A stretch of 48,601 bases of DNA. Origin: Hansschlegelia zhihuaiae (lineage in GTDB: Bacteria > Pseudomonadota > Alphaproteobacteria > Rhizobiales > Methylopilaceae). Under the pieces are notes generated by a model. It was given only the letters and a program-made list of their open reading frames with translations, did not search any database and was not told where the DNA came from. Positions within the stretch are counted from its first letter, which is position 1; the number at the start of each line of letters is the position of its first letter. Shown piece after piece: positions 21,628 to 43,670 of the stretch. The stretch spans positions 234,054-282,654 of the forward strand of contig NZ_RYFI01000001.1 in the NCBI RefSeq assembly GCF_004103825.1, written 5' to 3'. A program made the translations under genes and the position numbers.

Positions 21628-21633
21628 GCGGCG

Positions 21634-23909: not shown

Positions 23910-24113
23910 GAATTCTCTGGCGGAACTCCAAGCGGCGACGACCGCCGCCCGAACGCGCCGGTCATGACGGCCATGGCCGTCATGCAGCCGCGCACGCGGC
24001 TTCGTCAACGCCATGCGCTTGAGACGGCGCCCGAATGCTCATAGACAGAGCGCCGTCGCAAGGGTCCGAGAACCCGGGTCGCGCGCGCCCCGCGCGCCGC
24101 AGCCGAAATCGCC

Positions 24114-25937
24114 ATGACGCCGAAGCGGACCGCAATCCTCACAGACGAAAAACGCGCCCGGCCGTCGACGCTGATGCGGATCGCCTCGGTGATCCCGCTC
24201 CGGCGCACGGTCGTGACGCTGGTCCTGCTCGTGCTCGCGGGCGCCGCCGAAGGCATCGGCATCGCGAGCCTGCTTCCGCTTGTCGCCGCGGTCGGTCCGG
24301 AAGCCTCGCAGCCCAAGGGCGCGAGCGGAAAGATCGCCCATGCGGTCGAGAGCATCGGGCTCGAACCGACGCTCGGACTGTTCGTCACGGTGCTGATCGT
24401 CGGCATGCTGCTGAAGGCAGCCCTCACCATCATCGCGATGAACCGGGTCGGGCGCGCGGGCGCCGACGTCGCGACCAAGATGCGCCTCGACCTGATCGAG
24501 TCGCTGCTCGCGGCGCGCTGGTCCTACTATGTGCGCCAGCCGGTCGGCCGCTTCTCCGCGTCGCTCTCGATCGAGGCCATGCAGTCGGGCGAAGCATACA
24601 ACTCTCTCTGCAAGTTCGCCGCGGAGATGATCCAGGTCGTCACCTATCTCTCGGTGGTCACGCTGTTCTCGTGGCAGCTCGGGCTGCTGTCGGTCGCCGT
24701 CGGCCTGATCATGGTGCTGACGCTGAACCGCTTCATCTCGATGGCGAAGCGCGCCGCGCGCAAGCAGAAGAAGCGGGTCAGCGCGCTGGTCGGCGCCCTG
24801 ACCGACCTCCTGGTCGGCATCAAACCCATGAAGGCGATGGGTCGGCAGGCGCGCTTCAAAGAGCTGTTCGAGCGCGACGCCGAGGCGATCCGCAAGGCGC
24901 AGCGCCGCCAGTCCTTCGCCCGCGACACCAATAAGGCGCTGCAGGAGCCGATCCTGGCGATCTTCATCGCGATCGGCGCCTATGTGACGATCGGCGTGAT
25001 GGAGATGCCGACCGGCCAGGTCATCGTCATGGCGCTGCTGCTCGGCCGCACCGTGTCGACCATCGGCAAGGCCCAGCAGCAGCTCCAGTCGGTCCGCCTC
25101 CAGCAGGCCGGCTTCAACGCCATCAGCAACTCGATCGAGATCGCCCGCGGGATGCGCGAGCAGACCCGTCCGGGCGTCGCGCCGGCCTTCGAGCGCGGAA
25201 TCGAGTTCCGCAACGTGTCCTTCGCCTTCGGGGACACCGAAGTGATCAAGGACGCGAGCTTCGAGGCGCCGAAGGGGCGGGTCACCACCATCACGGGCTC
25301 GTCCGGCGCCGGCAAGACCACGACGGTCGACCTGCTGCTCGGGCTGCACGAGCCCTCGGGCGGCGAGATCCTGGTCGACGGCGCGCCGCTGCAGTCGATC
25401 GACCTCCTAGCCTGGCGCAGGCTGACCGGGTACGTCCCGCAGGAGCTGATGCTGTTCCACGACACGCTGCGCGCCAATGTGACGCTCGGCCAGCCGGAAT
25501 TCACCGACGAGGACGTGGCCCGCGCGCTCGAGCAAGCGGGCGCCGCCGATTTCGTCGCAAGCCTGCCGGAAGGCGTCGACACGGTGGTGGGCGAGCGCGG
25601 CTCGCGGCTGTCCGGCGGCCAGCGCCAGCGCATCTCGATCGCCCGCGCGCTGATCGACCGGCCGCGTTTGCTCATCCTCGACGAGGCCACCACCGCGCTC
25701 GACCCCGAGACCGAGGCCGCGATCGTCGCGAACGTGGTCGAGCTCACCCGGCGCACCGGCCTGACGGTGCTCGCGATTTCGCACCAGCCGGCCTGGGCGC
25801 GGGCGTCCGACAACGTCGTCCACCTCGCCAACGGCGTCGTCACCAAGATTGACAGGCGCGCCCCGGAGTGGTCGACCCCCGCGGAGCCGGAGACAGAACA
25901 GCCGCCGCGCGTGCGCGCGCTCGGCCCAATGTCCTGA
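24114..25937 (+). CDS. ABC exporter half-transporter, MsbA-like, candidate sphingolipid flippase
   Basis: A 607-residue half-transporter with the TM domain first (about residues 30-310) and the ATPase after it. Walker A GSSGAGKTT is at about 395-403, the signature LSGGQRQRIS at about 499, Walker B LLILDEAT at about 519-526, and the H-loop in AISHQPAWAR. TM1 contains the LAGAAEGIGIASLLPL type of start seen in lipid and polysaccharide exporters. It is followed after 29 bp by the acyl-ACP synthetase gene, so both are probably one transcript. Location suggests it flips a sphingolipid or a glycosylated lipid across the inner membrane; export of another glycan is the main alternative. Confidence 0.8.
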   Translation: MTPKRTAILTDEKRARPSTLMRIASVIPLRRTVVTLVLLVLAGAAEGIGIASLLPLVAAVGPEASQPKGASGKIAHAVESIGLEPTLGLFVTVLIVGMLLKAALTIIAMNRVGRAGADVATKMRLDLIESLLAARWSYYVRQPVGRFSASLSIEAMQSGEAYNSLCKFAAEMIQVVTYLSVVTLFSWQLGLLSVAVGLIMVLTLNRFISMAKRAARKQKKRVSALVGALTDLLVGIKPMKAMGRQARFKELFERDAEAIRKAQRRQSFARDTNKALQEPILAIFIAIGAYVTIGVMEMPTGQVIVMALLLGRTVSTIGKAQQQLQSVRLQQAGFNAISNSIEIARGMREQTRPGVAPAFERGIEFRNVSFAFGDTEVIKDASFEAPKGRVTTITGSSGAGKTTTVDLLLGLHEPSGGEILVDGAPLQSIDLLAWRRLTGYVPQELMLFHDTLRANVTLGQPEFTDEDVARALEQAGAADFVASLPEGVDTVVGERGSRLSGGQRQRISIARALIDRPRLLILDEATTALDPETEAAIVANVVELTRRTGLTVLAISHQPAWARASDNVVHLANGVVTKIDRRAPEWSTPAEPETEQPPRVRALGPMS

Positions 25938-25966
25938 TCCCGATCCCGACCGACGCAGGAGGCACA

Positions 25967-27685
25967 ATGACGTCGGACGTCGCCGACCTTGCGCGCCCGC
26001 TGACGAGCGCGGGCGCCGCGCCTACGATCCTCGACGCGCTCGAAGCCGCGGGCCGCGGACCGGAGGGTTTCAACTTCCATTCGGGCAAGGGCGTCCTCAC
26101 CGGAGCCCTGCCCTTTTCCAGGCTCGTCAAGGAGGCCCGCGCGCTCGCTCTCAAGCTGCTCGGCGTCGGCGTGAAGCCCGGCGACCACGTCGCGCTGATC
26201 GCCGACACCGAGGGCGACTTCGTCCGGCTGTTCTTCGCCTGCGCCTATGCCGGGGTCGCGCCTGCGCCGATGCCGCTGCCGATGGCCTTCGGCGGGCGCG
26301 ACAACTATCTACTCCACGTCCGCCGCATGATCGAATGTTCGGCCGCGTCGGCCGCCTTCGCGCCGGCCGCGATGAAGGATTGGCTCGTGGAGGCGGCCGA
26401 CGGTCTGGACCTCCACCTCGTCGGAACGATCGAAGACCTCGCCGACGTCGCGCCGGCGCCGGGCCCGCTCACGCCGCCTGATCCTGACGCGCTCGCCTAT
26501 CTGCAATTCTCGTCAGGCTCGACGCGCTTCCCGAAGGGCGTTTCGGTCACCCATCGCTCGCTGATGGCGAACGCCACCGCGATCAGCCGCCACGGGCTGA
26601 AGACCCGCGCCGGCGACCGCTGCGTCTCATGGCTGCCCTTCTATCACGACATGGGGCTGGTCGGTTTCATGCTGTCGCCCATCGTCGCGGGACTTTCGGT
26701 CGACTATCTCGCGACCCGCGACTTCGCGCGCCGCCCGCTGCTGTGGCTCGAGCTCATCGCTCGCAACAAGGCCACGATCTCCTATTCGCCGAGCTTCGGC
26801 TTCGAACTCTCCGCGCAGCGCGCAGCGACCGTCGACCTCGGCACGCTGGACGTCTCGTCCTGGCGCTGCGCCGGGATCGGCGGCGACATGATCCGCCCCC
26901 ACGTGCTGCGCCGCTTCGCCGAACGATTCGGGCCGCACGGCTTCAGTCCCTCCGCTTTCGTCGCGAGCTACGGCATGGCGGAGGCGACGCTCGCACTGTC
27001 CTTCGCGCCGCTCGACGAGGGTCTCAAGACCGAGACCGTCGACCTCGACCGGCTGGAGCAGGAGGGAGTCGCGGCCCCCCCGACCTCCGCCGACGCCCGC
27101 TCGCGCGAATTCGTGCTGTGCGGACCGGCGCTTCCGGGCCACGAGATCGAGTGCCGTGGGCCGGACGACGCTGCGATGCCGGAGCGCCGGGTCGGCCGCG
27201 TCTTCGCCAGGGGCCCGAGCCTGATGCGCGACTATTTCCGCGAGCCGGAAGCGACCGCGGAGACGCTGTCGCCCGATGGCTGGCTCGACACCGGCGACCT
27301 CGGCTATCTCGTCCATGGCCAGATCGTCATCACCGGCCGCGCCAAGGACCTCATCCTCGTGAACGGCCGCAACGTCTGGCCGCAGGACCTCGAATGGGCC
27401 GTGGAAGCCGGCGTTCCGGGCGTGAGGAGCGGCGACGTCGCGGTGTTTTCGGTCGACCGCCCGGAGGGCGAGGAGGTCGTCGCGCTCGTGCAGTGCCGGA
27501 GCCAGGACCCGGCGGCCCGCGCGGGGCTCGCCGAGGAGGTCGGCAAGCTGCTGCGCCTGCAGTTCGGGACGCCCGTGACGGTGCGGCTCGTCGGCGCCCA
27601 CGCGCTGCCGGTCACCTCCTCGGGCAAGCTCAGCCGAAGCCGTGCGCGGGAGCTGTTCCTCGCCATGCAGCCCGAGGCCGCCTGA
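25967..27685 (+). CDS. aasR: Fatty acyl-AMP ligase / acyl-ACP synthetase of the sphingolipid locus
   Basis: Adenylates a fatty acid and, by analogy to Caulobacter AasR, loads it on the adjacent acyl carrier protein. The 572-residue protein has the FAAL-type P-loop QFSSGSTRFPKGVSVTHRS (about 180-198), SWLPFYHDMGLVGF, a C-terminal TGDLGYLVHGQIVITGRAKDLILVNGRNVWPQDLE, and the terminal TSSGKLSRSRAREL with the catalytic Lys. I chose the ATG at 25967 because a perfect AGGAGG precedes it; the frame open from 25868 overlaps the ABC gene. The symbol rests on motifs plus position next to acpR and spt. A free-standing FAAL for another lipid is possible but less likely. Confidence 0.8.
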   Translation: MTSDVADLARPLTSAGAAPTILDALEAAGRGPEGFNFHSGKGVLTGALPFSRLVKEARALALKLLGVGVKPGDHVALIADTEGDFVRLFFACAYAGVAPAPMPLPMAFGGRDNYLLHVRRMIECSAASAAFAPAAMKDWLVEAADGLDLHLVGTIEDLADVAPAPGPLTPPDPDALAYLQFSSGSTRFPKGVSVTHRSLMANATAISRHGLKTRAGDRCVSWLPFYHDMGLVGFMLSPIVAGLSVDYLATRDFARRPLLWLELIARNKATISYSPSFGFELSAQRAATVDLGTLDVSSWRCAGIGGDMIRPHVLRRFAERFGPHGFSPSAFVASYGMAEATLALSFAPLDEGLKTETVDLDRLEQEGVAAPPTSADARSREFVLCGPALPGHEIECRGPDDAAMPERRVGRVFARGPSLMRDYFREPEATAETLSPDGWLDTGDLGYLVHGQIVITGRAKDLILVNGRNVWPQDLEWAVEAGVPGVRSGDVAVFSVDRPEGEEVVALVQCRSQDPAARAGLAEEVGKLLRLQFGTPVTVRLVGAHALPVTSSGKLSRSRARELFLAMQPEAA

Positions 27686-28124
27686 ACACATTCGGCGACG
27701 AAATATTTCAGTCATAAAGCAGTTTGCGCGCGTCATGCCCATCTGACGGCGGATCGGCGCCGCCGCAACGCTTGCGGCCATTGACCGAACGGTTCGGTCA
27801 AGCGGCCATAAACCTTTCTGTCACAAGCCGTTTTTGGCGGCTCGTCTGATCGACGCGGCGGCGGCAGACGGCTCCACTCTCGCCCCCCGGACGCGGCGCG
27901 GCGGCAGACGGCGCGAAGTGCATTTTGGCAACACCTGGCGAGCTATGAGGTCGAACGCCTTCTCGGCCTCGCTCGACTCATGGTTCAGTAAGGTAACGAG
28001 CGTGTAACATCCTGCATTGATTAGTGTTTTCGAACCGTCTTCGTGAACTTTACAGGGCCGGGAGCGCTCCCTAGGTTCCGGCTCGAGACTAAAGTTTGCT
28101 GTGGCGTTCCGCCAAGGCAATGAG
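27686..28124 (+). other. Non-coding region upstream of acpR
   Basis: This 439-bp stretch has no convincing gene and is the place where cerR would be expected by comparison with Caulobacter. It holds the perfect palindrome at 27781-27801, a 15-base direct repeat GCGGCGGCAGACGGC at 27858-27872 and 27898-27912 (40 bp apart), and an AT-richer stretch (about 27990-28050) likely to contain the acpR-spt promoter. An opposite-strand frame at 27821-28120 looks spurious. Confidence 0.55.
27781..27801. promoter_or_regulatory. Perfect 10-1-10 palindrome, candidate repressor operator
   Basis: Arms TTGACCGAAC (27781-27790) and GTTCGGTCAA (27792-27801) are exact complements around a single central G. Size and symmetry fit a dimeric repressor of the TetR type, and the left arm begins with TTGACC, close to a -35 consensus. 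It lies 324 bp before the acpR start and 96 bp after the aasR stop. No regulator gene is in the window. Confidence 0.55.
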
Positions 28125-28376
28125 ATGAGTGAAGATCAAGCAGCGTTGATCGACGAGATTTCGGAAGTCCTTGAAGGCGTCTTGAGCAGAAGAATCGAGT
28201 TGAAGCCGGAAATGAACATCGTGAATGACCTTGGCCTCGACTCGATCGCCGTGATGAATTTCACCATGGCGCTGGAAGACAAGTTCGATATCTCGATCCC
28301 GCTGCATGACATGGCCAGCGTCGTGACCGTCCAGGACCTCCTGAGGACGATCGAGACGCTGCGGAGTGACGCGTAA
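28125..28376 (+). CDS. acpR: Acyl carrier protein for sphingolipid synthesis
   Basis: An 83-residue carrier protein with the phosphopantetheine site DLGLDSIAVMNF (Ser about 40). The acidic helix II after it (ALEDKFDISIPLHDMASVVTVQDLL) is typical of specialised ACPs. I chose the ATG at 28125 (MSEDQAALIDEIS), with AAGG about 10 bases upstream; the GTG at 28101 is an alternative. Its stop overlaps the spt start in TAATG, so the two are translationally coupled. By analogy to Caulobacter AcpR it carries the acyl chain that Spt condenses with serine. Confidence 0.88.
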   Translation: MSEDQAALIDEISEVLEGVLSRRIELKPEMNIVNDLGLDSIAVMNFTMALEDKFDISIPLHDMASVVTVQDLLRTIETLRSDA

Positions 28377-29680
28377 TGTCCATTCTCGACAAGTTCTCCC
28401 CGCTCGCCGGTCGTTACGACCGGATGCGCGACAGCGGAGCCGATCCGTTCTCGATCAAGTTCGACGACGTCGTGTCCTCGGTCGAGGGCGTGGTGAACGG
28501 CAAGCGCACCCTGCTGTTCGGCACCAACAACTATCTGGGCCTGACCTTCGACCCGCACTCCGTCGAGAAGTCGGTCGAGGCGATCCGGCTGCACGGCACC
28601 GGCACCACGGGCTCGCGCATCGCGAACGGCTCCTACAAGGGGCATGAGGAGCTCGAGGCCGCGCTCGCCGATTTCTACGGCCGCAAGCACTGCATGGTGT
28701 TCTCGACCGGCTATCAGGCGAACCTCGCCATGATCTCGACGCTGGTCGGCCAGAACGACCACCTGATCATCGACGCCGACAGCCACGCCTCGATCTACGA
28801 CGCCTCGCGGCTCGGCCACGCGCCGGTCGTGCGGTTCCGGCACAACAACCCCGACGACCTCGCCAAGCGCCTCTCGCGCCTGAAGGACCAGCCGGGCGAC
28901 AAGCTGATCGTCGTCGAAGGCATCTATTCGATGCTCGGCGACACGGCGCCGCTCAAGGAGTTCGTCGACGTCAAGCGCGAGTTCGGCGCCTATCTCATGA
29001 TTGACGAGGCGCACTCGATGGGCGTGCTCGGCGAGACGGGCCGCGGCCTTGCGGAGCGCGAGGGCGTCGAGGAGGACGTCGACTTCGTGGTCGGCACCTT
29101 CTCGAAGAGCCTGGCCTCGGTCGGCGGCTTCTGCGTCTCGAGCCTGCCGGGCTTCGAAATCTTGCGCATCGCCGCACGTCCCTACATGTTCACGGCTTCG
29201 CTGCCGCCGGCCATCATCGCGTCGACGACCGCCGCGCTGGAGACCATGCGCTCCGAGCCGCAGCGCCGCGCGAAGCTGACCGCCAACGCCCGCCGCTTCT
29301 ACAACGGCCTGAAGGGCGCCGGCTTCACGGTCGGCCCGGAGGCCAATCCGATCGTCGCCGTCATCCTCAACGAGGTCGACGTCGCAGTGGCGTTCTGGAA
29401 GCGGCTGGTCGACGAGGGCATGTATCTCAACCTCGCGCTGCCGCCTGCGACGCCGAGCCACCAGGCCTTCCTGCGGTCGTCGGTGAGCGCGGCCCACGAG
29501 CCGGAGCACATCGACTTCGCGATCGAGCTGATGACCCGCGTCGGCCGCGAATTCGGCCTGCTGCCCGAGAACGTGCACCCGTTCCCGCCGCGTCAGGTCA
29601 CCGCAGAACGCCTTTCCGCCAGAGCCGCCACAATGCCGGCCCGGCGGCCAGCAGCGGATGTCGGCGCTGGAATGGCGTGA
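28376..29680 (+). CDS. spt: Serine palmitoyltransferase (PLP-dependent)
   Basis: Condenses L-serine with an acyl thioester to give 3-ketosphinganine, the first step of sphingolipid synthesis. The 434-residue alpha-oxoamine synthase shows NNYLGL (about 51), GTGTTGSRIANGSYKGHEELE (about 74), the His of DADSHASIYDASRLG (about 137), DEAHSMGVLG (about 210) and the PLP lysine in GTFSKSLASVGGF (Lys about 244). AONS and KBL are relatives, but the position after an ACP gene and the RPYMFTASLPPA segment fit SPT. The last 28 or so codons (29598-29680) overlap the 3' end of the opposite-strand gene. Confidence 0.9.
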   Translation: MSILDKFSPLAGRYDRMRDSGADPFSIKFDDVVSSVEGVVNGKRTLLFGTNNYLGLTFDPHSVEKSVEAIRLHGTGTTGSRIANGSYKGHEELEAALADFYGRKHCMVFSTGYQANLAMISTLVGQNDHLIIDADSHASIYDASRLGHAPVVRFRHNNPDDLAKRLSRLKDQPGDKLIVVEGIYSMLGDTAPLKEFVDVKREFGAYLMIDEAHSMGVLGETGRGLAEREGVEEDVDFVVGTFSKSLASVGGFCVSSLPGFEILRIAARPYMFTASLPPAIIASTTAALETMRSEPQRRAKLTANARRFYNGLKGAGFTVGPEANPIVAVILNEVDVAVAFWKRLVDEGMYLNLALPPATPSHQAFLRSSVSAAHEPEHIDFAIELMTRVGREFGLLPENVHPFPPRQVTAERLSARAATMPARRPAADVGAGMA

Positions 29681-30539
29681 CCTCGATCTTGTGGCCGGAG
29701 TGCCGCTCGATCTTCCAGGCGATGTAATCGGCGCCGCCTGAGAAGCTGAAGGCGGCCTTCGCGAGCCGCAAAAGGTTCAAGGGCTTGGCGAGCCGTTTTC
29801 GGGCGCGCCAGGCCCTTTCCGCATCCGCCCGCGCTTGTCGGCCGATGGCGGGCGACAACTCGCCGAGATCGTCGCGGAACGCGATCCCCTCGGCCGCCCA
29901 GGCGAGCCTGAGCGCCGCGTCGTAGCGGTCGGGCGCGGCCTCGACGATCGAGCCGGGACGCGACGCCCCCTCAACCCGGAGCTCCGACGAATAGGTCCGC
30001 GAGAACAGCGCCGACCAGAACCCGGCCGCCGATCCCTTCTCTGGTCCGAGATGCGCCGCCCACCAGGCCGCGCCCCTGACCGCGACCGCGACAGCCTCCG
30101 CCACCGCCTGCGCGGCGAAGGCGTCGCGGCTCCAGGCGAGCGCGGAGGGCTGAGCGAAGCGCGCCCAGATCGTTGTGTCGCGGCTCTGGTGGCGCGCGTG
30201 GCGGCGGAACTGGCCGAGCGTCATGACCGCGAGCTTCGAGCGCAGCGTCATGCCGGCCGCGGTGGTCTCGGCATATTCCACATTGGGCGGCAGATGGCGG
30301 GCGCCGAAGCGCAGCAGGGGCGAGGCGTCCCAGGCTTCGAGCCGGTCGAGCAGGACGTAGAAGTCGAGCAGGCCGTCTGTCGCGCCGGTGCGGAGCGCCG
30401 AGCCGTAGAACAGGATCCCGACCACCCCCTGCCCGCCCCGCGCGGCGAGCTCGGCCGCGAAGGTCGAGACAGCCGCCGGCACGGGCCGTGCGAGCTCCTC
30501 GGCGACGAAACGGACGAGGGCGGCCCCGGGGGCGGTCAC
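29598..30539 (-). CDS. cpgC: CpgC-like protein with Pol-beta/Tam41-type nucleotidyltransferase motif
   Basis: A 313-residue protein starting at a GTG (30539) that overlaps the cpgB stop by four bases (GTGA). The N-terminal third carries GILFYGSALRTGATDGLLDFYVLLD: a GS pair and spaced aspartates, the signature of Pol-beta-fold nucleotidyltransferases, with a YGS/DF arrangement like Tam41 CDP-diacylglycerol synthase. Later segments include YAETTAAGMTLRSKLAVMTLGQFR and a basic C-terminus (RHSGHKIEVTPFQRRHPLL). By position it corresponds to Caulobacter cpgC, needed for ceramide phosphoglycerate. A cytidylyl-transfer role is my inference; the published function of CpgC is not known to me. Confidence 0.65.
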   Translation of the reverse strand: MTAPGAALVRFVAEELARPVPAAVSTFAAELAARGGQGVVGILFYGSALRTGATDGLLDFYVLLDRLEAWDASPLLRFGARHLPPNVEYAETTAAGMTLRSKLAVMTLGQFRRHARHQSRDTTIWARFAQPSALAWSRDAFAAQAVAEAVAVAVRGAAWWAAHLGPEKGSAAGFWSALFSRTYSSELRVEGASRPGSIVEAAPDRYDAALRLAWAAEGIAFRDDLGELSPAIGRQARADAERAWRARKRLAKPLNLLRLAKAAFSFSGGADYIAWKIERHSGHKIEVTPFQRRHPLLAAGPALWRLWRKGVLR

Positions 30540-31465
30540 AGCCGCACGAACCTGATCTCGGGCCCCGCGGTCAGCTCGACGCGGCCGTCGGGACCCGCCA
30601 CGAAGGTGTCGCCGTCGAAGATGAAGGGCTCGCGGATCGTCAGAGACAGCCGGTCGGCCTTGTGGCTCTGATAGCCGGCCTCGGCGGCCCATGACGGCGG
30701 ACGGCCCATGCCGGCCGTCGCGAGCGTGCGGATCAGGCGGCGGGGCGGCGCGGCGACCTCGGTGACGTCGAACGCGCCCTCGCCCGTTCCCCAGAACGGC
30801 CACAGACCAAGCATCAGGCGGTGGAGCGAGGTCGCGAGCAGCGCGAAGCTGTAGCGGGTCTCGGGATTCGAGCCGTCGATCGAGAGCGCGAGCGGCACGC
30901 CGTTCCGCCAGGCGTCGCGGTCCTTGCCGAGCGCCGCGGCGCCCGCCATGAGGACGCCGAGCGCGACGCCCATCTTCTGCGCGAAGCCGCGCGAGTGGAC
31001 GCGCTCATTGGCGAGACGGGTGGCCCGCTCGAAGGCGCCCAGGCCGAACACGAAGCCCAGCATCTGCGCGCCGGCGGCCTCCACGCGGATCGGCCGGCGC
31101 GTCTGGGCCGGAAGCTCGGCGCCGGCGCCGACCGCCTCGGCGAGCGCCGCGAGCCGCTCCGGCGGCACGCCTCCGACGTCGGCCGCCGCCACATTGGTCT
31201 TGCCGCTCGGGACGATCGCGATCGCGGGCAGCGTCTCGCCGAACGCCCAAGGCAGCGCGCTCATGACGTCGCGCAGCGTCCCGTCGCCGCCGTCGACCGC
31301 CACCACGTCGACGCCCGCCTCGGCGAAGCGCCTCAGCGCATGCGGATAGTCGTCGAGCGTCTCGGGCGCCCCATACAGCACGCCGTCGCCAGCCGGCGCG
31401 AGCGGCGAGGCGCCCGCCCGGTTCCGCCAGCTCCGCGCGTTCGAGATGACGCCGAGCCGCGTCAT
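30536..31465 (-). CDS. cpgB: Ceramide kinase, diacylglycerol-kinase fold (CpgB-like)
   Basis: A 309-residue lipid kinase expected to phosphorylate ceramide. The DAGK catalytic motif VDGGDGTLRDVMSAL is at about residues 57-71, followed by AIVPSGKTNVAAADVGG, which matches the conserved P-x-G-T-x-N region with Lys at the third position. The C-terminal beta domain ends in FDGDTFVAGPDGRVELTAG. I chose the ATG at 31465 (MTRLGVISNARSWRN) rather than the ATG at 31513. Caulobacter CpgB is an experimentally shown ceramide kinase of this fold; here the location between cpgA-like and cpgC-like genes supports the same call over YegS or DgkB. Confidence 0.78.
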   Translation of the reverse strand: MTRLGVISNARSWRNRAGASPLAPAGDGVLYGAPETLDDYPHALRRFAEAGVDVVAVDGGDGTLRDVMSALPWAFGETLPAIAIVPSGKTNVAAADVGGVPPERLAALAEAVGAGAELPAQTRRPIRVEAAGAQMLGFVFGLGAFERATRLANERVHSRGFAQKMGVALGVLMAGAAALGKDRDAWRNGVPLALSIDGSNPETRYSFALLATSLHRLMLGLWPFWGTGEGAFDVTEVAAPPRRLIRTLATAGMGRPPSWAAEAGYQSHKADRLSLTIREPFIFDGDTFVAGPDGRVELTAGPEIRFVRL

Positions 31466-31478
31466 GCGCTGCCGCCGC

Positions 31479-32615
31479 TCACGCGGCGTCGAGCCAGGAC
31501 ACGAGCCTCGCATGGCGGCTGAGGATCATCGCCTGCACGAGCTGGGCGAGGTGGACGACGAGCGACAGCACGATCCACGCGCAGACCAGGATCATGCCCC
31601 AGTCGGGCCTCCCGACGAGGGTCAGCGCGGTCAGGATCACGAGATTCGGGTTCCGCCGCGCGGTGATCAGCCGGAAGAACGAATCGAACGGCCGCCAGAC
31701 ATGCATGTGGAAGCCCCAGAGCCGGATGAACGCGCCTTCGAAGACCCGCTGCACGATGTAGCCGCCCACGATGATCCAGATCATCAGATCGGCGTGCGGA
31801 ACCTCGAAGCCGGCCTTCGGCAGACCCCAGATCCACGCGATCCACCAGAAGGGCGGGTGGATGAGGTCGATGCCGTGGTCGAGAACGTCGCCGAATTTCG
31901 AAGACGTCATGGTGACGCGTGCGAGCTTGCCGTCGACCGTGTCCAGGAAGGTCATGATCCAGGCCGGGATCAGCCCGAGCAGGAAGTTCCCATTCCAGAA
32001 CAGGAAGAGCGCGAGGAACATCAGCGCGAGGCCGAGATAGGTGACGGCGTTCGGCGTGATCTCGCGCTCCGCGCACCATTTGGTGACGGCCTTCGCCGGC
32101 CGCGGCCAGACATATTTCGTGACGACGTCGGTCACGCCCTTGTAGGAGCCCGCGAAGCTCCTTGCCTCGACCTCCGCCACGCTCCGCTCGTCGAGCGGGA
32201 TCAAATAGGCGATCTCGCGCTTGCGGAGCTTGCGGTTGTAGGAGCCTGCGAGCCCTTCCGAGTCGAGCGCCTCGAGCCCGTCCGGAACGCGGCCCGCGCC
32301 GATCTCGGCGACGGCCTCAGCCGCCTGGGCGCCTTTGACGTTCGCAGCCGCCGCCGCGCCGCCCGCCACGAGCGCGACCCCGGGGCGTATCGCGAGCTCG
32401 TCGATCAGGCGTTGCTCATAGGCCCAGTCGAGGCGCAGAATCATCACGTCCGCGTCAGGCGAGACCCCTTCGGCGTCGGCGCGCACGTCTTGCACACCTG
32501 CCCGCGCGAGCTGGCGCCGGAGGCGTTCCGCCGAGCTCATGCCCCAGATGAACACCGTCGACGCGCCCGCCAGAACCGCGGTCGCCGCCCGGGCCTCGCT
32601 GCCATTCTCAGTCAT
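31479..32615 (-). CDS. cpgA: CDP-alcohol phosphatidyltransferase with N-terminal cytoplasmic domain (CpgA-like)
   Basis: A 378-residue membrane enzyme. The CDP-alcohol signature D-x2-DG-x2-AR-x8-G-x3-D-x3-D is exact at residues 225-250 (DTVDGKLAR ... GDVLDHGID). About six membrane segments surround it. Residues 1-150 form a soluble domain (VFIWGMSSAERLRRQLARAGV ...), and SYNRKLRKREIAYLIPLDE leads into SYKGVTDVVTKYVWPRPAK. The N-terminal domain resembles a degenerate nucleotidyltransferase. The start is the ATG at 32615. It is the first gene of a three-gene operon with the cpgB- and cpgC-like genes. By analogy it transfers a headgroup from a CDP donor to ceramide phosphate. Confidence 0.75.
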   Translation of the reverse strand: MTENGSEARAATAVLAGASTVFIWGMSSAERLRRQLARAGVQDVRADAEGVSPDADVMILRLDWAYEQRLIDELAIRPGVALVAGGAAAAANVKGAQAAEAVAEIGAGRVPDGLEALDSEGLAGSYNRKLRKREIAYLIPLDERSVAEVEARSFAGSYKGVTDVVTKYVWPRPAKAVTKWCAEREITPNAVTYLGLALMFLALFLFWNGNFLLGLIPAWIMTFLDTVDGKLARVTMTSSKFGDVLDHGIDLIHPPFWWIAWIWGLPKAGFEVPHADLMIWIIVGGYIVQRVFEGAFIRLWGFHMHVWRPFDSFFRLITARRNPNLVILTALTLVGRPDWGMILVCAWIVLSLVVHLAQLVQAMILSRHARLVSWLDAA

Positions 32616-32736
32616 TCCTCTTGCGTCGCTCCACGCTGCGGGACTATCGCGGTGTCGTTTAACGGCGAAATCCGCGCGGCGCCAGCGAGCCGGCCCCTTC
32701 ATCGCGAAGGCGCAGGCCAGGGATCATGAAACTCTC

Positions 32737-33174
32737 ATGACGAACGCCACGATGCAGAAGTTCGGCCATCCCCGCTCCGCGGTCGCGGATGTCGGGGCCT
32801 GGACGGTGCTCGTCCGTCCCAAGCAGCCGACGCTCGGGTCGCTGGTCCTGGTCTGCCGCGAGGACGCGAAGGCGTTCTCCGAACTGAGCCCGCAGGCCTT
32901 TGCGGACCTGCGGGACGCCGTCGCCGGGATCGAGCGCGTCCTCAAGGCGCATGTGGACTACCAGCGCATCAATTATCTGATGCTGATGATGGTCGACCCG
33001 GACGTCCACTTCCACGTCATCCCGCGCTATGACGGCGAGCGGCGGTTCGGCCAGGCGGCGTTCACGGACGTGGGCTGGCCGGGGCCGCCGGACCTCGGAA
33101 CCGCCGTCGACCTTGACGACGCCGCGCTCGACGCGCTGGTGGCCGAACTCAAGTCGCGCTGGGCGGCCGCCTGA
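32737..33174 (+). CDS. HIT-family protein with variant histidine triad
   Basis: A 145-residue protein of the histidine triad superfamily, which hydrolyse or transfer nucleotidyl groups. The motif is DVHFHVIPRYDG (about residues 89-100): the first His of the canonical H-x-H-x-H is Asp, while the middle (nucleophilic) and last His remain. The N-terminal part includes GAWTVLVRPKQPTLGSLVLVCREDAKAFSEL. The start is the ATG at 32737. Its stop and the LptF-like start overlap (TGATG at 33172-33176), so it heads a five-gene operon with bcerS and the cpgD-like gene. A role in handling CDP- or AMP-linked intermediates is plausible but unproven. Confidence 0.75.
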   Translation: MTNATMQKFGHPRSAVADVGAWTVLVRPKQPTLGSLVLVCREDAKAFSELSPQAFADLRDAVAGIERVLKAHVDYQRINYLMLMMVDPDVHFHVIPRYDGERRFGQAAFTDVGWPGPPDLGTAVDLDDAALDALVAELKSRWAAA

Positions 33175-34382
33175 TGACCCTCCTGCCTCGGATGCGCATC
33201 CTTGACCGTTATGTGCTCGCGCTGACGCTGAAGCCGATGATGGTTTCGCTCGGCGTGGTGCTGATGGCGCTGCTGCTCGAGCGCATCCTGCGGCTCATCG
33301 ACATCCTGGCGACCGCCGGCGCCCCGATCTTCATCGCCTTCGCGCTCGCCGGAAATCTGGTTCCGCATTATCTCGGCTTCGCGATGCCGGCGGGCTTCGC
33401 GCTCGGGGTCTACAGCGCGATCTCCAAGCTCAGCGCCGGCGCCGAGCTCGAGGCGGGGCTCGCCTCCGGCGTCTCCGTCCGCTCGATCGTGCGGCCGCTG
33501 ATCGCGCTCGGCGTGGTCCTCAGCGTCGTAAGCATCGTGGTGGTTGGATATCTCTCGCCGCTATGCCGCTACGCCTATCGCGAGATCATCAACCAGTCGG
33601 TCTCCTACGCCTGGCGCGCCCACGCGCCGGCCGCGACCTTCATCAGCGTCAAGGACGGCCTGACCATCACGGCCGACGAGGTCGACAAGACCGGCCGGAA
33701 CCTCAAGGGCGTCTTCATCCAGAACCGCGAGAACGGCGTCGACGTCGTGACCTCCGCCGCCACCGGGTCGCTCGAGCTCACGCCCGACAAGACTCAAATC
33801 CAGCTCCGCCTCAAGAACGGCGCCGTGGTCCGCGACTACGGCGCTGAACGGCCGAGCACGCTGCGCTTCCAGGACTTCATCCTCGACCGCAAGTTCGACC
33901 TGAAGGCGCCGCCGTTCCGCGAGCGCGGCGGCAGCGAACGCGAACTCACCATGACCGAGCTCTGGAACGAGATGGACGCGCCCCTGCCCTCGCAACCACG
34001 CGAGCAGCTCGCCGCCGAGTTCCATTCACGGCTGGCGCGGTCGCTCTCGCTCATCTTCCTGCCGCTGCTGATCGTGCCGCTCAGCATGACGATGCGGCGC
34101 AACACGCGCATCGTGAACATGGCGGCGGCCGCGATCATGATGGTGGTCTGCCACAACGCGCTGCAGATCGGCGAGACGCTCGCCGACAAGGGCCTGGCGC
34201 CGGCCTGGATCGCCTGCTGGAGCCCGTTCGTGCTGTTCCTCGGCATCGCCCTCATCCTGTTCCGCACCAGCACGGACCGGCCTGGCGACACCATCATCTC
34301 ACGCGCCATAGACGGGGTGAGCGACAGCCTCTCCCAGGCGACGCGCCGCGTCGTGGGCCGGTTCCGGACCGCGGAGGCCTGA
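33174..34382 (+). CDS. LptF-like permease, probably a sphingolipid-locus paralogue
   Basis: A 402-residue inner-membrane protein with the LptF/LptG layout: three N-terminal membrane segments (RYVLALTLKPMMVSLGVVLMALLLERILRL ... NLVPHYLGFAMPAGFALGVY), a large periplasmic domain with a jellyroll-like stretch (TFISVKDGLTITADEVDKTGRNLKGVFIQNR), then three C-terminal membrane segments (LIFLPLLIVPLSMTMRR onward). The coupling GAELEAGLASGVSV matches the ATPase contact. In Hyphomicrobiales the LPS lptFG genes normally sit with pepA, lptD, surA, pdxA and ksgA; none of those is here. I therefore read it as a paralogue moving sphingolipid, with LPS transport as the alternative. Confidence 0.8.
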   Translation: MTLLPRMRILDRYVLALTLKPMMVSLGVVLMALLLERILRLIDILATAGAPIFIAFALAGNLVPHYLGFAMPAGFALGVYSAISKLSAGAELEAGLASGVSVRSIVRPLIALGVVLSVVSIVVVGYLSPLCRYAYREIINQSVSYAWRAHAPAATFISVKDGLTITADEVDKTGRNLKGVFIQNRENGVDVVTSAATGSLELTPDKTQIQLRLKNGAVVRDYGAERPSTLRFQDFILDRKFDLKAPPFRERGGSERELTMTELWNEMDAPLPSQPREQLAAEFHSRLARSLSLIFLPLLIVPLSMTMRRNTRIVNMAAAAIMMVVCHNALQIGETLADKGLAPAWIACWSPFVLFLGIALILFRTSTDRPGDTIISRAIDGVSDSLSQATRRVVGRFRTAEA

Positions 34383-35513
34383 ATGCGGTTCTCGCGTTAT
34401 CTCAGCGTCATGCTGTTCAAGCTCGCGCTGACGGCGACCTTCATCCTCGCCTTCATCGCCGAAATCCTCGACCTCGTTGAAAACGCCGGCGACATCCTCG
34501 GGGCGGGCGAAGGAGTGCTGGGCATCCTGCGCTACGTCGCGCTGCGGTTCCCGACCCTGCTGGTCCACGCGCTGCCGCTCGGCGCGCTGGTGGGCGCGCT
34601 GATCACGCTCGCGCTGCTCGCCCGCAACAGCGAGATCACGGCGATGCGCGCGGCGGGGCGAGGCGCTTTGGGCATGTTCCTGTCGATGCTGCCGGGCGCG
34701 CTCGCGCTCGTCATCGTGCATTCCACGCTGATCGACGTCATCGCGCCGCGCACCGAGGCCAAGCTCGCGATCCAGGCGACCAAGCGGCTGGAGAAGGCCG
34801 AGGAGGAGGGCAAGAACGCCAAGACCACATGGCTGCGCGTTGGCGACGCCGTGATCTCCTTCGACCGCGTGAGCGATCGCGGCCGCAGGCTCCGCGACCT
34901 GCGCATCTATGACCGAGACTCGAGCAAGATCGTGATCGCGCGCACGACGGTGGCGGAGGCCCGTTACCGCGACGGCAAATGGACGCTTTCGGGAGCCGAG
35001 CGCGTCTCCTGGGCGCGCCAGACGCTGAACGAAAAATCCTCCGCCGACGGCGTCTGGAACACCACCATGACGCCGGACGACGTGCTCGCGGCGCTCTCGC
35101 CCGAGAGCCGGATTTCGCTCACGGCCGCCCGCAAGGTGGTGGCGGGCGAGCAGACGCCGAACGCGCCGCTGCCGTTCTACGAGACGCTGATCGAACGGGT
35201 CTACGCCGCGCCGCTCGGCCTGATCGTCATGGTGCTGCTCGCGATGCCGGCCTCCCTGCTCAACTGGCGCGACGCCCGCTCGACATGGCACGGCTTCACG
35301 GCGCTGGCGGCGGGCCTGCTGTTCCTGCTCGGCGACGGCGTGATGACGACGCTCGGGCTGACAGGCGTGGTGGCGCCCGCGGTCGGCGCGTGGACCGGGC
35401 TCATCCTGTTCGCGCTGATCGGCGCGTGGCGGCTGTGGCGGATCGACGGCGGCTGGCCCGAACCGCGCGCTCCACGGCCTCCCGCGGGCCGCCTCGCGGA
35501 GGCGACGGGTTGA
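34383..35513 (+). CDS. LptG-like permease, partner of the preceding gene
   Basis: A 376-residue inner-membrane protein with the same topology as the LptF-like gene: N-terminal membrane segments, NSEITAMRAAGRGALGMFLSML as the cytoplasmic coupling region, a periplasmic beta-rich middle (TTWLRVGDAVISFDRVSDRGRRLRDLRIYDRD), and C-terminal membrane segments (GLIVMVLLAMPASLLNWRDARST, GLLFLLGDGVMTTLGLTGVV). The start ATG follows directly on the previous stop (no gap). The stop overlaps the bcerS start (TTGA at 35510-35513). Together with the LptF-like protein it could form a transporter for the finished sphingolipid; no cognate LptB-like ATPase is in the window. Confidence 0.8.
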   Translation: MRFSRYLSVMLFKLALTATFILAFIAEILDLVENAGDILGAGEGVLGILRYVALRFPTLLVHALPLGALVGALITLALLARNSEITAMRAAGRGALGMFLSMLPGALALVIVHSTLIDVIAPRTEAKLAIQATKRLEKAEEEGKNAKTTWLRVGDAVISFDRVSDRGRRLRDLRIYDRDSSKIVIARTTVAEARYRDGKWTLSGAERVSWARQTLNEKSSADGVWNTTMTPDDVLAALSPESRISLTAARKVVAGEQTPNAPLPFYETLIERVYAAPLGLIVMVLLAMPASLLNWRDARSTWHGFTALAAGLLFLLGDGVMTTLGLTGVVAPAVGAWTGLILFALIGAWRLWRIDGGWPEPRAPRPPAGRLAEATG

Positions 35514-36637
35514 GCTCTCCCGAGATCCGTCCGGTCGATGGCGCGCGCGAACTCGACCGGTTCATCGCCCTGCCGAACCGGCTGCATGCCGCCGACGCGA
35601 CCTATGTCGCGCCGCTGAAGCTCGAGCGTCGTCAGGCGCTGTCGCAGAAATCCAACCCGCTGTTCAAGCATGTCGAGGCCCAGTTCTGGATGGCCTGGCG
35701 GGATGGGCGCCCGGTCGGCCGGATCAGCGCGCAGGCCGACCCGCGGCTGGGCGAGGTCGGGCAGTTCGGGCTGATCGCGGCCGAGGACGACGGCGAGATC
35801 TTTCATGCGCTGTTCTCGACCGCCGAGGAGTGGCTGAAGTCGCGCGGCAAGACGCAGGCGCAGGGTCCGTTCAACCTCAACATCAATGAAGAGTCCGGGC
35901 TGCTCGTCGACGGCTTCGACACGCCGCCGATGCTGCTGATGCCGCACGACCTGCCTTACGTCGCGCCGCGCGTCGAGGCCGAGGGCTACGCCAAGGTCAT
36001 GGACCTTTTCGCCTATCTGCACGACACGCAGGTCCCGTTCCCGCGCGCGATCGAGCGCATCCTGGAGCGGGAGCGTCCGGCCGACGTCAAGGTCAGGCAC
36101 ATGGACTGGTCGCGCTACCATGAGGAGCTCGCGACCGTCGTCGACATCTTCAATGACGCCTGGTCGGAGAATTGGGGCTTCCTGCCGTTCGGGCCGGACG
36201 AGCTCGACCACATGGCGAAGTCCATGAAGCTGCTGCTCGACGAGCGGCTCCTCTGGTTCGTCGAGGTCAAGGGACGGCCGGCGGCCTTCGGGCTGTCGCT
36301 GCCGAACCTCAACGAGATGATCAGGGATCTCGACGGCGAGCTGCTGCCCTTCGGCTGGGCCAAGCTGCTCTGGCGGCTGAAGCGCCGCACCTACACGTCG
36401 GGCCGCATCCCGCTGATGGGCGTCAGGCGCGAATTTCATTCGGGCTATCTCGGCAAGGTGCTGCCGCTCTTCATCTTCGAGAAGTTTCGCGAGGAGGGCC
36501 GCGCCCGCAACGTGCGGCACGTCGAGATGTCCTGGGTGCTCGAGACCAACAAGCCGATGCGCCATATCGGCGAGGCGCTCGGCGGCGGCAGGGCCTACAA
36601 GACCTACCGCATCTACGAGAAGGCGCTGGCGCGGTGA
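35510..36637 (+). CDS. bcerS: Bacterial ceramide synthase-like N-acyltransferase (GNAT type)
   Basis: A 375-residue soluble protein resembling a two-domain GNAT acyltransferase. Segments are IRPVDGARELDRFIALPNRLHAAD at the N-terminus, FKHVEAQFWMAWRDGRPVGRISAQADPRL, GQFGLIAAEDDGEIFHALF, then GPFNLNINEESGLLVDGFD and the C-terminal MSWVLETNKPMRHIGEALGG. It matches my memory of Caulobacter bCerS (CCNA_01212), which acylates 3-ketosphinganine. The start is a TTG at 35510 with GGAGG 7 bases upstream, overlapping the LptG-like stop as TTGA. The next gene's GTG start overlaps its stop. Annotations as GNAT acetyltransferase or dATP pyrophosphohydrolase would be misleading. Confidence 0.75.
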   Translation: MSSPEIRPVDGARELDRFIALPNRLHAADATYVAPLKLERRQALSQKSNPLFKHVEAQFWMAWRDGRPVGRISAQADPRLGEVGQFGLIAAEDDGEIFHALFSTAEEWLKSRGKTQAQGPFNLNINEESGLLVDGFDTPPMLLMPHDLPYVAPRVEAEGYAKVMDLFAYLHDTQVPFPRAIERILERERPADVKVRHMDWSRYHEELATVVDIFNDAWSENWGFLPFGPDELDHMAKSMKLLLDERLLWFVEVKGRPAAFGLSLPNLNEMIRDLDGELLPFGWAKLLWRLKRRTYTSGRIPLMGVRREFHSGYLGKVLPLFIFEKFREEGRARNVRHVEMSWVLETNKPMRHIGEALGGGRAYKTYRIYEKALAR

Positions 36638-37371
36638 CCGCCGCCCTGGTGCTGGCCGGGACCCGCAAGGGCGGCGACCAGCTCGCGGAGTTCGCGGGCG
36701 TCAGCCACAAGGCGCTGATCCCGGTCGGCGGCGAGCCGATGCTGGAGCGGGTCGTCCACGCGCTGAAGGAGAGCGGGCGGGTCGACCGCATCGTGGTGTC
36801 GATCAACCGGCCGAAGCTCGTGACCATGCCGGGCGTCGAGGTGATCCGCTCGGCCAGGACGCTGAGCGAGAGCGTGATCGACGGCCTCAGGACGACCGGC
36901 GGACCGACGCTGATCACCACCGCCGACCACGCGCTGCTCGAGCCCGAATGGGTTCGCTATTTCATGGATCATCGGCCGGCCAAGGACGTCGTGATCGGCG
37001 TCGCGCGGGCGGAGATCGTCATGGCGGCGGCGCCGGACACCAAGCGCACCTTCATCAAGCTCGCCGACGCCGCCTATTCGGGCTGCAACCTGTTCCACCT
37101 CGACAATGTCGACGCCGAGCACGCCATCGGCCTGTGGCGCGAATTCGAACAGCTCCGCAAGAAGCCGCTCAAGATGCTGCACAAGCTCGGGCCGAGCGCG
37201 ATTCTGGCCTACGCCATGGGGAGGCTGACGGTCGCGCGGGTGATCGCCGAGGTCGAGCGGATCGGCGGACTGACGGCCGGCGTCGTCGAGATGCCGTTCG
37301 GCCGCGCCGCGATCGACGTCGACAAGCCGGAAGACCTCATTCTGGTGCGCCGCCTGGTCGAGGCGGCCTGA
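36634..37371 (+). CDS. cpgD: CpgD-like nucleotidyltransferase (MobA fold)
   Basis: A 245-residue protein beginning at a GTG (36634) that overlaps the bcerS stop by four bases (GTGA). The Rossmann-like NTP-binding N-terminus is AALVLAGTRKGGDQLAEFAGVSHKALIPVGGEPMLERVV, with Lys about 26 in place of the usual sugar-nucleotide loop lysine. A second motif, TTADHALLEPEWV, carries the metal-binding Asp. In Caulobacter the corresponding gene (cpgD, CCNA_01210 as I recall) makes CDP-glycerate from CTP and 3-phosphoglycerate. Gene order makes that the best guess; MobA-like or sugar-phosphate substrates cannot be excluded. Confidence 0.68.
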   Translation: MTAALVLAGTRKGGDQLAEFAGVSHKALIPVGGEPMLERVVHALKESGRVDRIVVSINRPKLVTMPGVEVIRSARTLSESVIDGLRTTGGPTLITTADHALLEPEWVRYFMDHRPAKDVVIGVARAEIVMAAAPDTKRTFIKLADAAYSGCNLFHLDNVDAEHAIGLWREFEQLRKKPLKMLHKLGPSAILAYAMGRLTVARVIAEVERIGGLTAGVVEMPFGRAAIDVDKPEDLILVRRLVEAA

Positions 37372-37498: not shown

Positions 37499-39145
37499 CT
37501 ACGCCCCCTCCTTCTCCGCGATCAGCGCCTCGAGGCTCTCCAGCCTGTCGGCCTCCGCGGTCGGCTTGTCCCAGCGGATGCGGGCGACCCTCGGAAACCG
37601 CATGGCCACGCCGGATTTGTGCCGCGTCGAGCGCGCGATGCCTTCGAAGGCGATCTCCAGCACGAGCCCCTGCTCCGCGGTGTGGACCACCTCCCGCACT
37701 GGGCCGAAGCGGTTCGTGGTGTTCTTGCGCACGAAGCGGTCGAGCTCGGTCAGTTCCTCGTCGGTGAAGCCGAAATAGGCCTTGCCGACCGGCGCCAGCC
37801 GCTCTCCTTCCTCGGGATCCGTGGTCCAGACCCCGAACGTGTAGTCCGAATAGAAGGACGAGCGCCGTCCGTGGCCGCGCTGGGCATACATCAGGACCGC
37901 GTCGACCGTCATCGGGTCGTGCTTCCACTTGAACCAGAGACCCTTGGGCCGGCCGACCACGTATGGGCTGTCGCGGCGCTTCACCATCAGCCCCTCGACG
38001 GCGGCCGCGTCGTCGCCGGCGCCCGCCGAGGCCGGGTCGAGCCGGGCGGCCGTGAGCCCGTCCCAGTCATCGAACGGGACGATGGCCGAAAGGTCGACTC
38101 GGCGGTTGTCTTCCCGCGCGATGAAGGCCTCAAGGCGCTTTCGCCTCTCTTCGAAGGGCCTTTCGCGCAAGTCCTCGTCGCCTTCGACGAGCAGATCGTA
38201 CGCGCGGATATGAGCCGGGAACTCGGCCAGCAGCTTCGGCGTCACGCTCTTCCGGTTCAGCCGCTGCTGCAGCACGTTGAAGGTCTGCACGCGGCCCTCG
38301 CGCAGGATCAGCAGTTCGCCGTCGATCGCGCCATCGAAGGTCAGCGCCTCGACGAGATCCGGAAACGCGCCCGAGACGTCCTCGCCCGACCGGCTCCAGA
38401 GCCGCGCGACATGTCGCCCCTCCGCGTCGCGTCCGGCGGACGCCTGCACCCGGATGCCGTCCCACTTCCATTCGGCGACGAAGTCCTTGGGCTCGAAGGC
38501 CCGGAAGTTGGCGTCCTCGAGCGGGTGCGCGAGCATCGGCGGCCGGAACGGCGCCGGGTCCTCGGCGAAGGGCCTTTCGCCCCGCCCCTCCACCCAGGCG
38601 AACAGATCTTCGTAAGGCGGCGCCAGCCCCGGCCAGACCAACTCGACGTCGTCGGGTTTCACGTCCTCGCCGAGCGCCGCCACCGCGGTCTTGGCGAGCC
38701 GCGCCGACGCGCCGATGCGCAAGCTGCCGGTGATGAGCTTCAGGAGCGCCCAGCGGCCGGTCTCGTCGAGCGCGTCGAGCCATTGCGCGAGCCGTTTCGG
38801 CAGGTCGAGCTTGGCGGTCGACGTTAGTCCCTCGACGATTTCGGACAGCAGCGGCGAGCGATTGGCGCGGGTCTCCCCCGGCCACATCAGCGCGACGGTC
38901 TCGGCGAGGTCGCCGACATAGTCGTAGGACAGCCCGAACAGCACCGGGTCCGTCCGCTCCATGATGAGGCCGCGGATCAGGCCGGGCTTGGCGTGCCGGA
39001 ACGACAGCGCGCCGGTGAGCGCCGCCAGCGCGAAGCCGCGCTCCGGGTCGGGGGTCTCGCGAAAGTACTCGGCCATCAGCCGGATCTTGGCGTTGCGCCG
39101 CGGCTCGTAGGCGAGGCGGTCGAGCAGGAAGGCGAAGCGGTTCAC
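37499..39145 (-). CDS. ATP-dependent DNA ligase of the LHR repair system
   Basis: A 548-residue ATP-dependent ligase. The adenylation motif EWKWDGIRVQ has the catalytic Lys at about 227, AIDGELLI gives motif III, GLMVKRRDSPYVVG lies in motif IV/V territory, and WFKWKHDPMTVDAVLMYAQRG is motif V. An N-terminal helical domain (residues 1-200) precedes it. I chose the GTG at 39145, overlapping the exonuclease stop as GTGA; the longer frame to 39241 is antisense-like. The family is annotated as a cisplatin damage response ligase. It works with the exonuclease, Lhr helicase and PdeM genes nearby. Confidence 0.9.
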   Translation of the reverse strand: MNRFAFLLDRLAYEPRRNAKIRLMAEYFRETPDPERGFALAALTGALSFRHAKPGLIRGLIMERTDPVLFGLSYDYVGDLAETVALMWPGETRANRSPLLSEIVEGLTSTAKLDLPKRLAQWLDALDETGRWALLKLITGSLRIGASARLAKTAVAALGEDVKPDDVELVWPGLAPPYEDLFAWVEGRGERPFAEDPAPFRPPMLAHPLEDANFRAFEPKDFVAEWKWDGIRVQASAGRDAEGRHVARLWSRSGEDVSGAFPDLVEALTFDGAIDGELLILREGRVQTFNVLQQRLNRKSVTPKLLAEFPAHIRAYDLLVEGDEDLRERPFEERRKRLEAFIAREDNRRVDLSAIVPFDDWDGLTAARLDPASAGAGDDAAAVEGLMVKRRDSPYVVGRPKGLWFKWKHDPMTVDAVLMYAQRGHGRRSSFYSDYTFGVWTTDPEEGERLAPVGKAYFGFTDEELTELDRFVRKNTTNRFGPVREVVHTAEQGLVLEIAFEGIARSTRHKSGVAMRFPRVARIRWDKPTAEADRLESLEALIAEKEGA

Positions 39146-40176: not shown

Positions 40177-40243
40177 GCGGAGAAAGAGATATGCCTCGTT
40201 CCGTCAGGTGCGAGTCAAACCAGCCGGCACCCAATATGGTACC

Positions 40244-40813: not shown

Positions 40814-40924
40814 AGCGACGACTCCGGCTCACCGAAATGCGGCGATGATCTCAGGCAAGCTATCAATCGGCAAAAGGCTTATCACGTCGGGCGGCCTTCG
40901 ACTGGCTCGAGCGCGTCGCGCGCT

Positions 40925-40930: not shown

Positions 40931-40937
40931 ATAGACC

Positions 40938-43511: not shown

Positions 43512-43516
43512 GAACG

Positions 43517-43638: not shown

Positions 43639-43670
43639 CTGCGCCCAGGTTCCTGCTACGTTCTCGCTCG

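Follow-up and report, generated by a model that had tools for sequence, protein, structure and literature searches.

The locus described here lies in a stretch of 48,601 nucleotides of Hansschlegelia zhihuaiae DNA (RefSeq assembly GCF_004103825.1, contig NZ_RYFI01000001.1, positions 234,054 to 282,654), referred to below as the window. It spans window positions 24114-37371 and resembles the Caulobacter crescentus gene cluster for anionic sphingolipids of the ceramide phosphoglycerate type (CPG and CPG2). Genomes are denoted by G numbers (G000 is the window's own), contigs by C and further loci by L. All twelve open reading frames are intact; a preliminary description of this DNA had spoken of eleven genes, while its own list named twelve. 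The features are as follows.

24114-25937, forward: ABC exporter, candidate flippase of the CC_1166 type (Pfam ABC_membrane and ABC_tran)
25967-27685, forward: aasR, FAAL-type acyl-ACP synthetase (NF006624, 817.5 bits, cut-off 600)
27686-28124, no strand: intergenic gap, the place of cerR in Caulobacteraceae relatives, here without cerR
28125-28376, forward: acpR, specialised acyl carrier protein (PP-binding, DSIAV)
28376-29680, forward: spt, serine palmitoyltransferase (NF047599, 672.2 bits, cut-off 500; pyridoxal phosphate lysine in GTFSKS)
29598-30539, reverse: cpgC, Tam41-like nucleotidyltransferase (conserved motifs and structure model)
30536-31465, reverse: cpgB, ceramide kinase type (DAGK_cat, E 5.5e-10; GGDGT)
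31479-32615, reverse: cpgA, CDP-alcohol phosphotransferase (CDP-OH_P_transf, E 3e-10; full motif DTVDGKLARVTMTSSKFGDVLDHGID)
32737-33174, forward: HIT-family protein (PF01230, 22.7 bits, cut-off 21.5)
33174-34382, forward: lptF2 (LptF_LptG, E 2e-65)
34383-35513, forward: lptG2 (LptF_LptG, E 8e-56)
35510-36637, forward: bcerS, bacterial ceramide synthase family (relatives and tree; TTG start inferred)
36634-37371, forward: CofC/MobA-like nucleotidyltransferase of the CC_1153 type (NTP_transf_3; GTG start inferred from the frame)

The gene families named in the preliminary description (ABC exporter, FAAL, the carrier protein with its DSIAV site, Spt with GTFSKS, the DAGK kinase with GGDGT, the CDP-alcohol motif, HIT and two LptF_LptG proteins) are borne out, and the identity of the last gene has to be revised. 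Its further characterisation of the locus as complete-looking does not hold: the space separating aasR from acpR contains no cerR, and the genome search turned up no ortholog. The best PDB match of AasR is 3pbk, a fatty acyl-adenylate ligase (E 5.4e-141), and that of Spt is 2x8u, a serine palmitoyltransferase (E 1.9e-131). The ABC exporter reaches 246.7 bits with the MsbA model TIGR02203 against a cut-off of 602, and by that model it is not MsbA. Judging from its position, the HIT gene probably corresponds to CC_1157.

The published order of the C. crescentus cluster CC_1168-CC_1152 comprises the same set in the same relative arrangement, namely ABC, aasR, acpR, spt, cpgC, cpgB, cpgA, HIT, lptF2, lptG2, cerS and CC_1153 (PMC11324152). 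Our own comparison was made with Caulobacteraceae relatives and not with a C. crescentus sequence. From spt onwards the gene order and strands of the window equal those of the Phenylobacterium locus L042, which begins inside aasR: spt runs forward, cpgC, cpgB and cpgA backward, and HIT, lptF2, lptG2, bcerS and the last gene forward again. The window departs from the Caulobacter cluster in lacking cerR, in having an unlinked CpgD and in showing neither CC_1158 nor LptC2. The starts of cpgA and the HIT gene are 122 bp apart with no CC_1158-type gene between them, and none of the 30 window reading frames scanned with Pfam matches the LptC family. Six other loci (L039, L047, L050, L061, L064 and L076) carry a second cpgA-like gene upstream of bcerS.

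The last gene, 36634-37371, had been taken for cpgD. Its best NCBIfam match is F420_cofC with 30.7 bits, under the cut-off of 105, and it lacks an arginine at the aligned R16 position and thereby the COG1213-type motif. Since CC_1153 has been described as CofC-like (PMC11324152), the F420_cofC match places the gene with CC_1153, while CpgD itself (CC_1152) belongs to another type, the COG1213 cytidylyltransferases, and has R16, K26 and D112 (PMC12275187). A protein of the latter kind is encoded by the second nucleotidyltransferase gene of L042 (13107-13856, reverse), which together with its relatives bears the CpgD residues and whose PDB matches include 4jd0, the enzyme with which the CpgD authors made their comparison. 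R17, K27, N90, N109, G110, D111 and W199 are invariant in the eight rows of the profile, a set that does not include the G000 copy, and by visual matching of positions they correspond to CpgD residues R16, K26, Asn90, Asn110, Gly111, D112 and Trp201 as named in PMC12275187 and PMC13228409. A search with this profile located CpgD of G000 at C59:145881-146621 (E 1.9e-113), unlinked to the cluster. CpgD was found in the same way in all 13 genomes of the genus, each of which also holds the sphingolipid cluster; its distance from bcerS is about 2.4 kb in three of them and about 18 kb in one, and in the remaining nine it lies on another contig or more than 500 kb away.

The window bCerS has no Pfam or NCBIfam match, and its assignment to the family comes from its relatives, which are encoded by 339 stretches of public genomes and by 22 of 61 genomes searched, including all 13 of the genus. 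It is 50-52% identical to the Caulobacteraceae proteins, a comparison that does not include the C. crescentus protein itself. Comparisons among named loci take in 80 named bCerS loci; those closest to the window in the tree belong to Chenggangzhangella methanolivorans, a strain filed as Chelatococcus sambhunathii, a Methylopila metagenome-assembled genome and Hansschlegelia plantiphila. In a quick tree the Methylopila group falls with Aureimonas and the Caulobacteraceae (26 rows, support 97), apart from the order relatives G021 and G023, a placement that is suggestive, and only suggestive, of a horizontal gain from a Caulobacteraceae-like source. Clustering is not universal in Caulobacter, as bCerS of the Caulobacter endophyticus locus L037 showed none of the other cluster genes within 10 kb.

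CpgC likewise has no Pfam or NCBIfam match. A YGS and a D.Y motif are invariant in 25 aligned relatives, from which an AlphaFold2 model with a pLDDT of 87.7 was obtained. The four best PDB matches of this model in Foldseek are all Tam41 CDP-diacylglycerol synthases, mitochondrial and bacterial (E 3.1e-7 to 1.1e-6, the next match being at 1.2e-3), with TM-scores of 0.46-0.53 by query length and 11-13% identity, which speaks for a likeness of fold and not of activity. An InterPro hint to CDP-diacylglycerol synthase had already been recorded for CC_1161 (PMC11324152). In five Nitrosomonas-type loci (L075, L082, L087, L091 and L100) cpgB and cpgC form a single reading frame, which fits a kinase step followed by CTP-dependent activation; together with the Tam41-like fold this leads us to propose CDP-ceramide as an intermediate.

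With CpgB established in Caulobacter as the ceramide kinase and CpgD as the enzyme that forms CDP-glycerate, according to published work, the following pathway can be envisaged. AasR would load a fatty acid onto AcpR, Spt would join the AcpR-borne fatty acid to serine, and bCerS would N-acylate the resulting 3-ketosphinganine. CpgB would then phosphorylate the ceramide and the Tam41-like CpgC would activate ceramide phosphate with CTP to CDP-ceramide, to which a (phospho)glycerate group would be added. CpgA would add a second (phospho)glycerate from CDP-glycerate made by the unlinked CpgD, and the CC_1153-type enzyme may contribute one more activation. Flipping of the lipid may fall to the ABC protein, and its transport to the outer membrane to LptF2 and LptG2 (LptF2G2) together with LptD. 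The gene content gives good support to a pathway for an anionic phosphosphingolipid of the CPG type, which the locus would both make and export, each of these reactions being predicted from sequence. The enzymes for 3-oxo-sphinganine (aasR, acpR, spt) and CpgA, CpgB and CpgC are present, as is CpgD at its distant position; the CerR reductase, a member of the CPG/CPG2 cluster, is not. The pathway proposed in the preliminary description thus stands in its gene content and in an unlinked CpgD, and falls short at the CerR step and in its assignment of cpgD.

In Caulobacter, aasR and acpR are separated by cerR (PMC9386255), and a cerR mutant accumulates oxidised ceramide (PMC11087976). Matches to both aasR and acpR occur in 25 of the 80 named loci; 17 of these have a gap of 1009-1351 bp between the two genes with a cerR match in it, and eight, namely L052 and the seven Methylopila-group loci that extend to these genes, have a gap of 312-563 bp without cerR. 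A whole-genome profile search combined with a tree found no CerR ortholog in any of the 13 genus genomes. The CerR profile scores E 5.7e-105 in G021 and 3.7e-106 in G023; its best matches in the genus reach 1.3e-30 to 2.4e-36, the same range as in six relatives of the order without bCerS (1.7e-32 to 1.6e-40). In the tree, which was built by a quick method without bootstrap and left out the lower-scoring or short matches L135, L142, L143 and L144-L147, the 13 best matches of the genus group with relatives from pathway-free genomes and apart from 19 CerR proteins (SH-aLRT 100). Because of the weak profile scores and this placement outside CerR, the orthologous reductase appears to have been lost or replaced in the whole genus.

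Two candidates for the missing enzyme were rejected. A second CerR match in G000, C10:20159-21139 (L141), covers the full profile, though at a low 119.7 bits, and in the tree it attaches to the CerR side by a branch of 2.47 flagged as unsafe; it is read as an HpnA-type enzyme, and its neighbours look by eye like hopanoid genes. The short-chain dehydrogenases/reductases (SDRs) next to CpgD in G001, G002 and G005 turned out to be a common gene that we label NDUFA9-like and whose copy in G000 is on C1, apart from CpgD.

It is nevertheless probable that an unrelated reductase, KDSR-like or NDUFA9-like, reduces the 3-keto group, so that the product would be an ordinary dihydroceramide-based lipid. 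SDRs of the KDSR type carry out this reduction in Bacteroides thetaiotaomicron (PMC9278070) and are proposed to do so in Pseudomonas fluorescens (PMC12134224), and CerR itself is related to NDUFA9 (PMC11087976); all 13 genus genomes contain an NDUFA9-like relative. Not counting polyketide synthases (PKS), adh_short matches number 26 in G000; ten of them were scanned against NCBIfam, and one of these scores 185 bits with the KDSR model. On the other hand, the KDSR cut-off of 400 bits was reached in none of 21 genomes and in none of 14 control genomes either, so that the test lacked a positive control, and neither the cluster nor the interval from aasR to acpR contains a KDSR- or NDUFA9-like gene. 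The absence of CerR either contradicts the printed statement that the core enzymes occur in all sphingolipid-making bacteria or points to an unknown reductase.

Outside the window, G000 has a further module in which a PKS with the domains KS-AT-DH-MT-ER-KR-ACP, an oxoamine synthase and a bCerS-like gene (bCerS2) stand in a row (C59:24339-34535, corresponding to L101:340-10536). The three genes occur together in all four genomes that were read, G000 and, judged by size and position of the reading frames, G004, G007 and G012, and bCerS2 is present in all 13 genus genomes. P. fluorescens forms sphinganines with a PKS paired with an oxoamine synthase (PMC12134224); this SgaAB system of strain MYb115 has the same order, PKS then alpha-oxoamine synthase, to which the C59 module adds bCerS2 as a third gene. 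The module could therefore be a second source of sphingoid base. With its gene content and the P. fluorescens precedent in mind, one may ask whether it makes the main sphingolipid, the window locus furnishing the head groups and a transport route, or some minor lipid. We regard this as unlikely: AasR and AcpR give the window locus an acyl supply of its own, to which Spt is added, aasR, acpR and spt being kept in all seven Methylopila-group loci whose contigs extend that far, and bCerS2 is distant from bCerS (32-35%). Both the module and the window locus may be active.

The wider significance of the cluster emerges from the genes for lipopolysaccharide (LPS). The LptF/LptG model (PF03739) matches G000 only twice, at C1:267260-268318 and C1:268448-269494 (window 33207-34265 and 34395-35441), so that the cluster pair is the only one and a dedicated LPS pair is absent. 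Eight of the 13 genus genomes (G000, G001, G002, G005, G007 in four pieces, G008, G010 and G012) have LptF/LptG only beside bcerS; the other five (G003, G004, G006, G009 and G011) have a second pair. Canonical LpxC (323-327 bits) is confined to the same five within the genus, as are LpxB, which is absent from the eight, and KdtA over its cut-off, of which G005 and G007 have weak matches under it. LptD was matched in 29 of 29 genomes. All five same-family genomes without bCerS keep LpxC, LpxB and KdtA; among the 14 bCerS-free genomes tested, LpxC is present in 14, LpxB in 13 (all except G026, which is 84% complete) and KdtA in 12 (all except G022 and G024). The Caulobacter vibrioides control genome matches the LptF_LptG, LpxC, LpxB and KdtA models, from which the window host differs in lacking the canonical LptFG, LpxC, LpxB and KdtA.

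Beside lptD the order in G004 and G006 is g06, lptF, lptG, lptD, while in all four clade members read (G000, G001, G005 and G012) g06 directly precedes lptD. As lptF and lptG are gone from this position in four of four, including G012, a single contig of 4.45 Mb listed as 100% complete, the loss of LPS genes is not an effect of assembly. A tree built from three cluster proteins, lptG2, bCerS and the one of CC_1153 type, and describing cluster genes and not species, puts the eight genomes in one clade (100/99) and the five in another (100/98). As the cluster, without cerR, is shared by the two clades, it would have been in place before LPS was lost. A comparable picture is offered by G021, from another family of the order, which has bCerS and CerR, keeps LptD, matches neither LpxC, LpxB nor KdtA, and has LptF/LptG, two genes, only inside its own full sphingolipid cluster (L160), cerR included; it is probably a second, independent natural LPS loss.

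Ceramide and ceramide phosphoglycerate lipids reportedly can support growth of C. crescentus without lipid A. The preliminary description had made this point, and a genome without LpxB, KdtA, canonical LpxC and canonical LptFG fits it well. We therefore favour, with a probability of roughly two in three, the reading that the window comes from a clade naturally free of LPS. The place of LPS would be taken by an anionic sphingolipid, carried by LptF2G2 and LptD and probably the main lipid of the outer leaflet. According to a published proposal, LptC2, LptF2 and LptG2 take such lipids to the outer membrane; for a genome that has lost LPS one would then expect LptF2G2 as the sole pair, with LptD kept, as is seen here.

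Several observations weigh against this reading. G000 encodes a divergent LpxC at C32:3443-4369 (L202), with 235.5 bits over the Pfam cut-off and with the zinc-binding His and Asp motifs kept. The loss of LPS rests on searches for LpxC, LpxB, KdtA and LptF/LptG; LpxA, LpxD, LpxK, LptA, LptB and LptC were not searched. Single absences are noisy, KdtA being missing from two and LpxB from one of the 14 bCerS-free genomes, and G000 is an assembly of 61 contigs with 97.5% completeness. G023 holds bCerS along with LpxC, KdtA and five LptF/LptG matches and has no LpxB match. Finally, no CerR ortholog was found for the backbone step, and the C59 module could supply the lipid.

The divergent LpxC also bears on an alternative in which an ordinary Caulobacter-type CPG/CPG2 locus supplements LPS, with lipid A made by divergent enzymes and LPS carried by LptF2G2. 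Besides the metal-binding motifs of this protein, the retention of LptD and the coexistence of the cluster with LPS genes in the five sister genomes agree with such an arrangement. It is improbable all the same, as LpxB, KdtA, canonical LpxC and lptFG are absent together from the same eight genomes, the single-contig G012 among them. Moreover, divergent LpxC-family matches (181-238 bits) occur in 11 of the 13 genus genomes, including all five LPS-positive ones, and G002 and G005 have no LpxC match at all; since it stands alongside the canonical LpxC in the five and is missing from G002 and G005, the divergent protein is a paralog and not a replacement. A bolder version of the LPS-free reading also deserves mention. 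In it, the outer leaflet of a methylotroph clade naturally without LPS would consist of an anionic sphingolipid that bears phosphoglycerate and has its 3-oxo backbone left unreduced, the Lpt bridge (LptF2G2 and LptD) having been handed over wholly from LPS to the sphingolipid, with the cluster acquired first and LPS lost later. This stronger combination we consider doubtful.

The neighbourhood of the cluster offers some further observations. An ELM1-like gene (PF06258; window 22827-24014, reverse) adjoins the cluster, is found in 12 of the 80 bCerS loci and may belong to sphingolipid or envelope biology. Next to it, at 20722-22680, lie two glycosyltransferase family 2 genes, for which a role in sugar head groups is possible. 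Downstream, at 37499-44384, an ATP-dependent DNA ligase, a metallo-hydrolase, an Lhr-type helicase and a metallophosphoesterase together resemble a DNA repair cassette. A tRNA-like element with an unassigned four-base anticodon, called by ARAGORN at 48337-48426 (forward), is probably spurious, and a 16S search of the G000 genome gave no match.

The occurrence of such a cluster outside Caulobacter is already published and its presence alone is not new: CPG-type gene sets are described for Hyphomonas, Azotobacter, Nitrosomonas and Pseudomonas luteola (PMC11324152). These are reported with five ceramide genes including cerR, whereas no cerR ortholog was found in the window's genus. Sphingomonads, whose LPS is replaced by sphingolipids, resemble the host in being diderm alphaproteobacteria with sphingolipid genes and an apparent absence of LPS (PMC11324152, PMC11087976), and differ from it in that the head group predicted for the window is phosphoglycerate and not sugar, that the genes form one cluster, and that an LPS-positive sister clade carries the same cluster. 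The absence of CerR throughout a genus, an unlinked CpgD and the coincidence of the cluster with LPS gene loss were not described in the open-access literature searched, subscription literature lying outside that search. Whether LPS can be replaced by an anionic sphingolipid has been studied in Caulobacter mutants, and the clade described here looks like the same event in nature. Its LPS-positive sister clade lets the order of events, cluster first and LPS loss second, be read from genomes, and a sole LptF/LptG pair that resides in the sphingolipid cluster, with LptD kept, makes the proposed sphingolipid route across the Lpt bridge directly testable, with no LPS to interfere.

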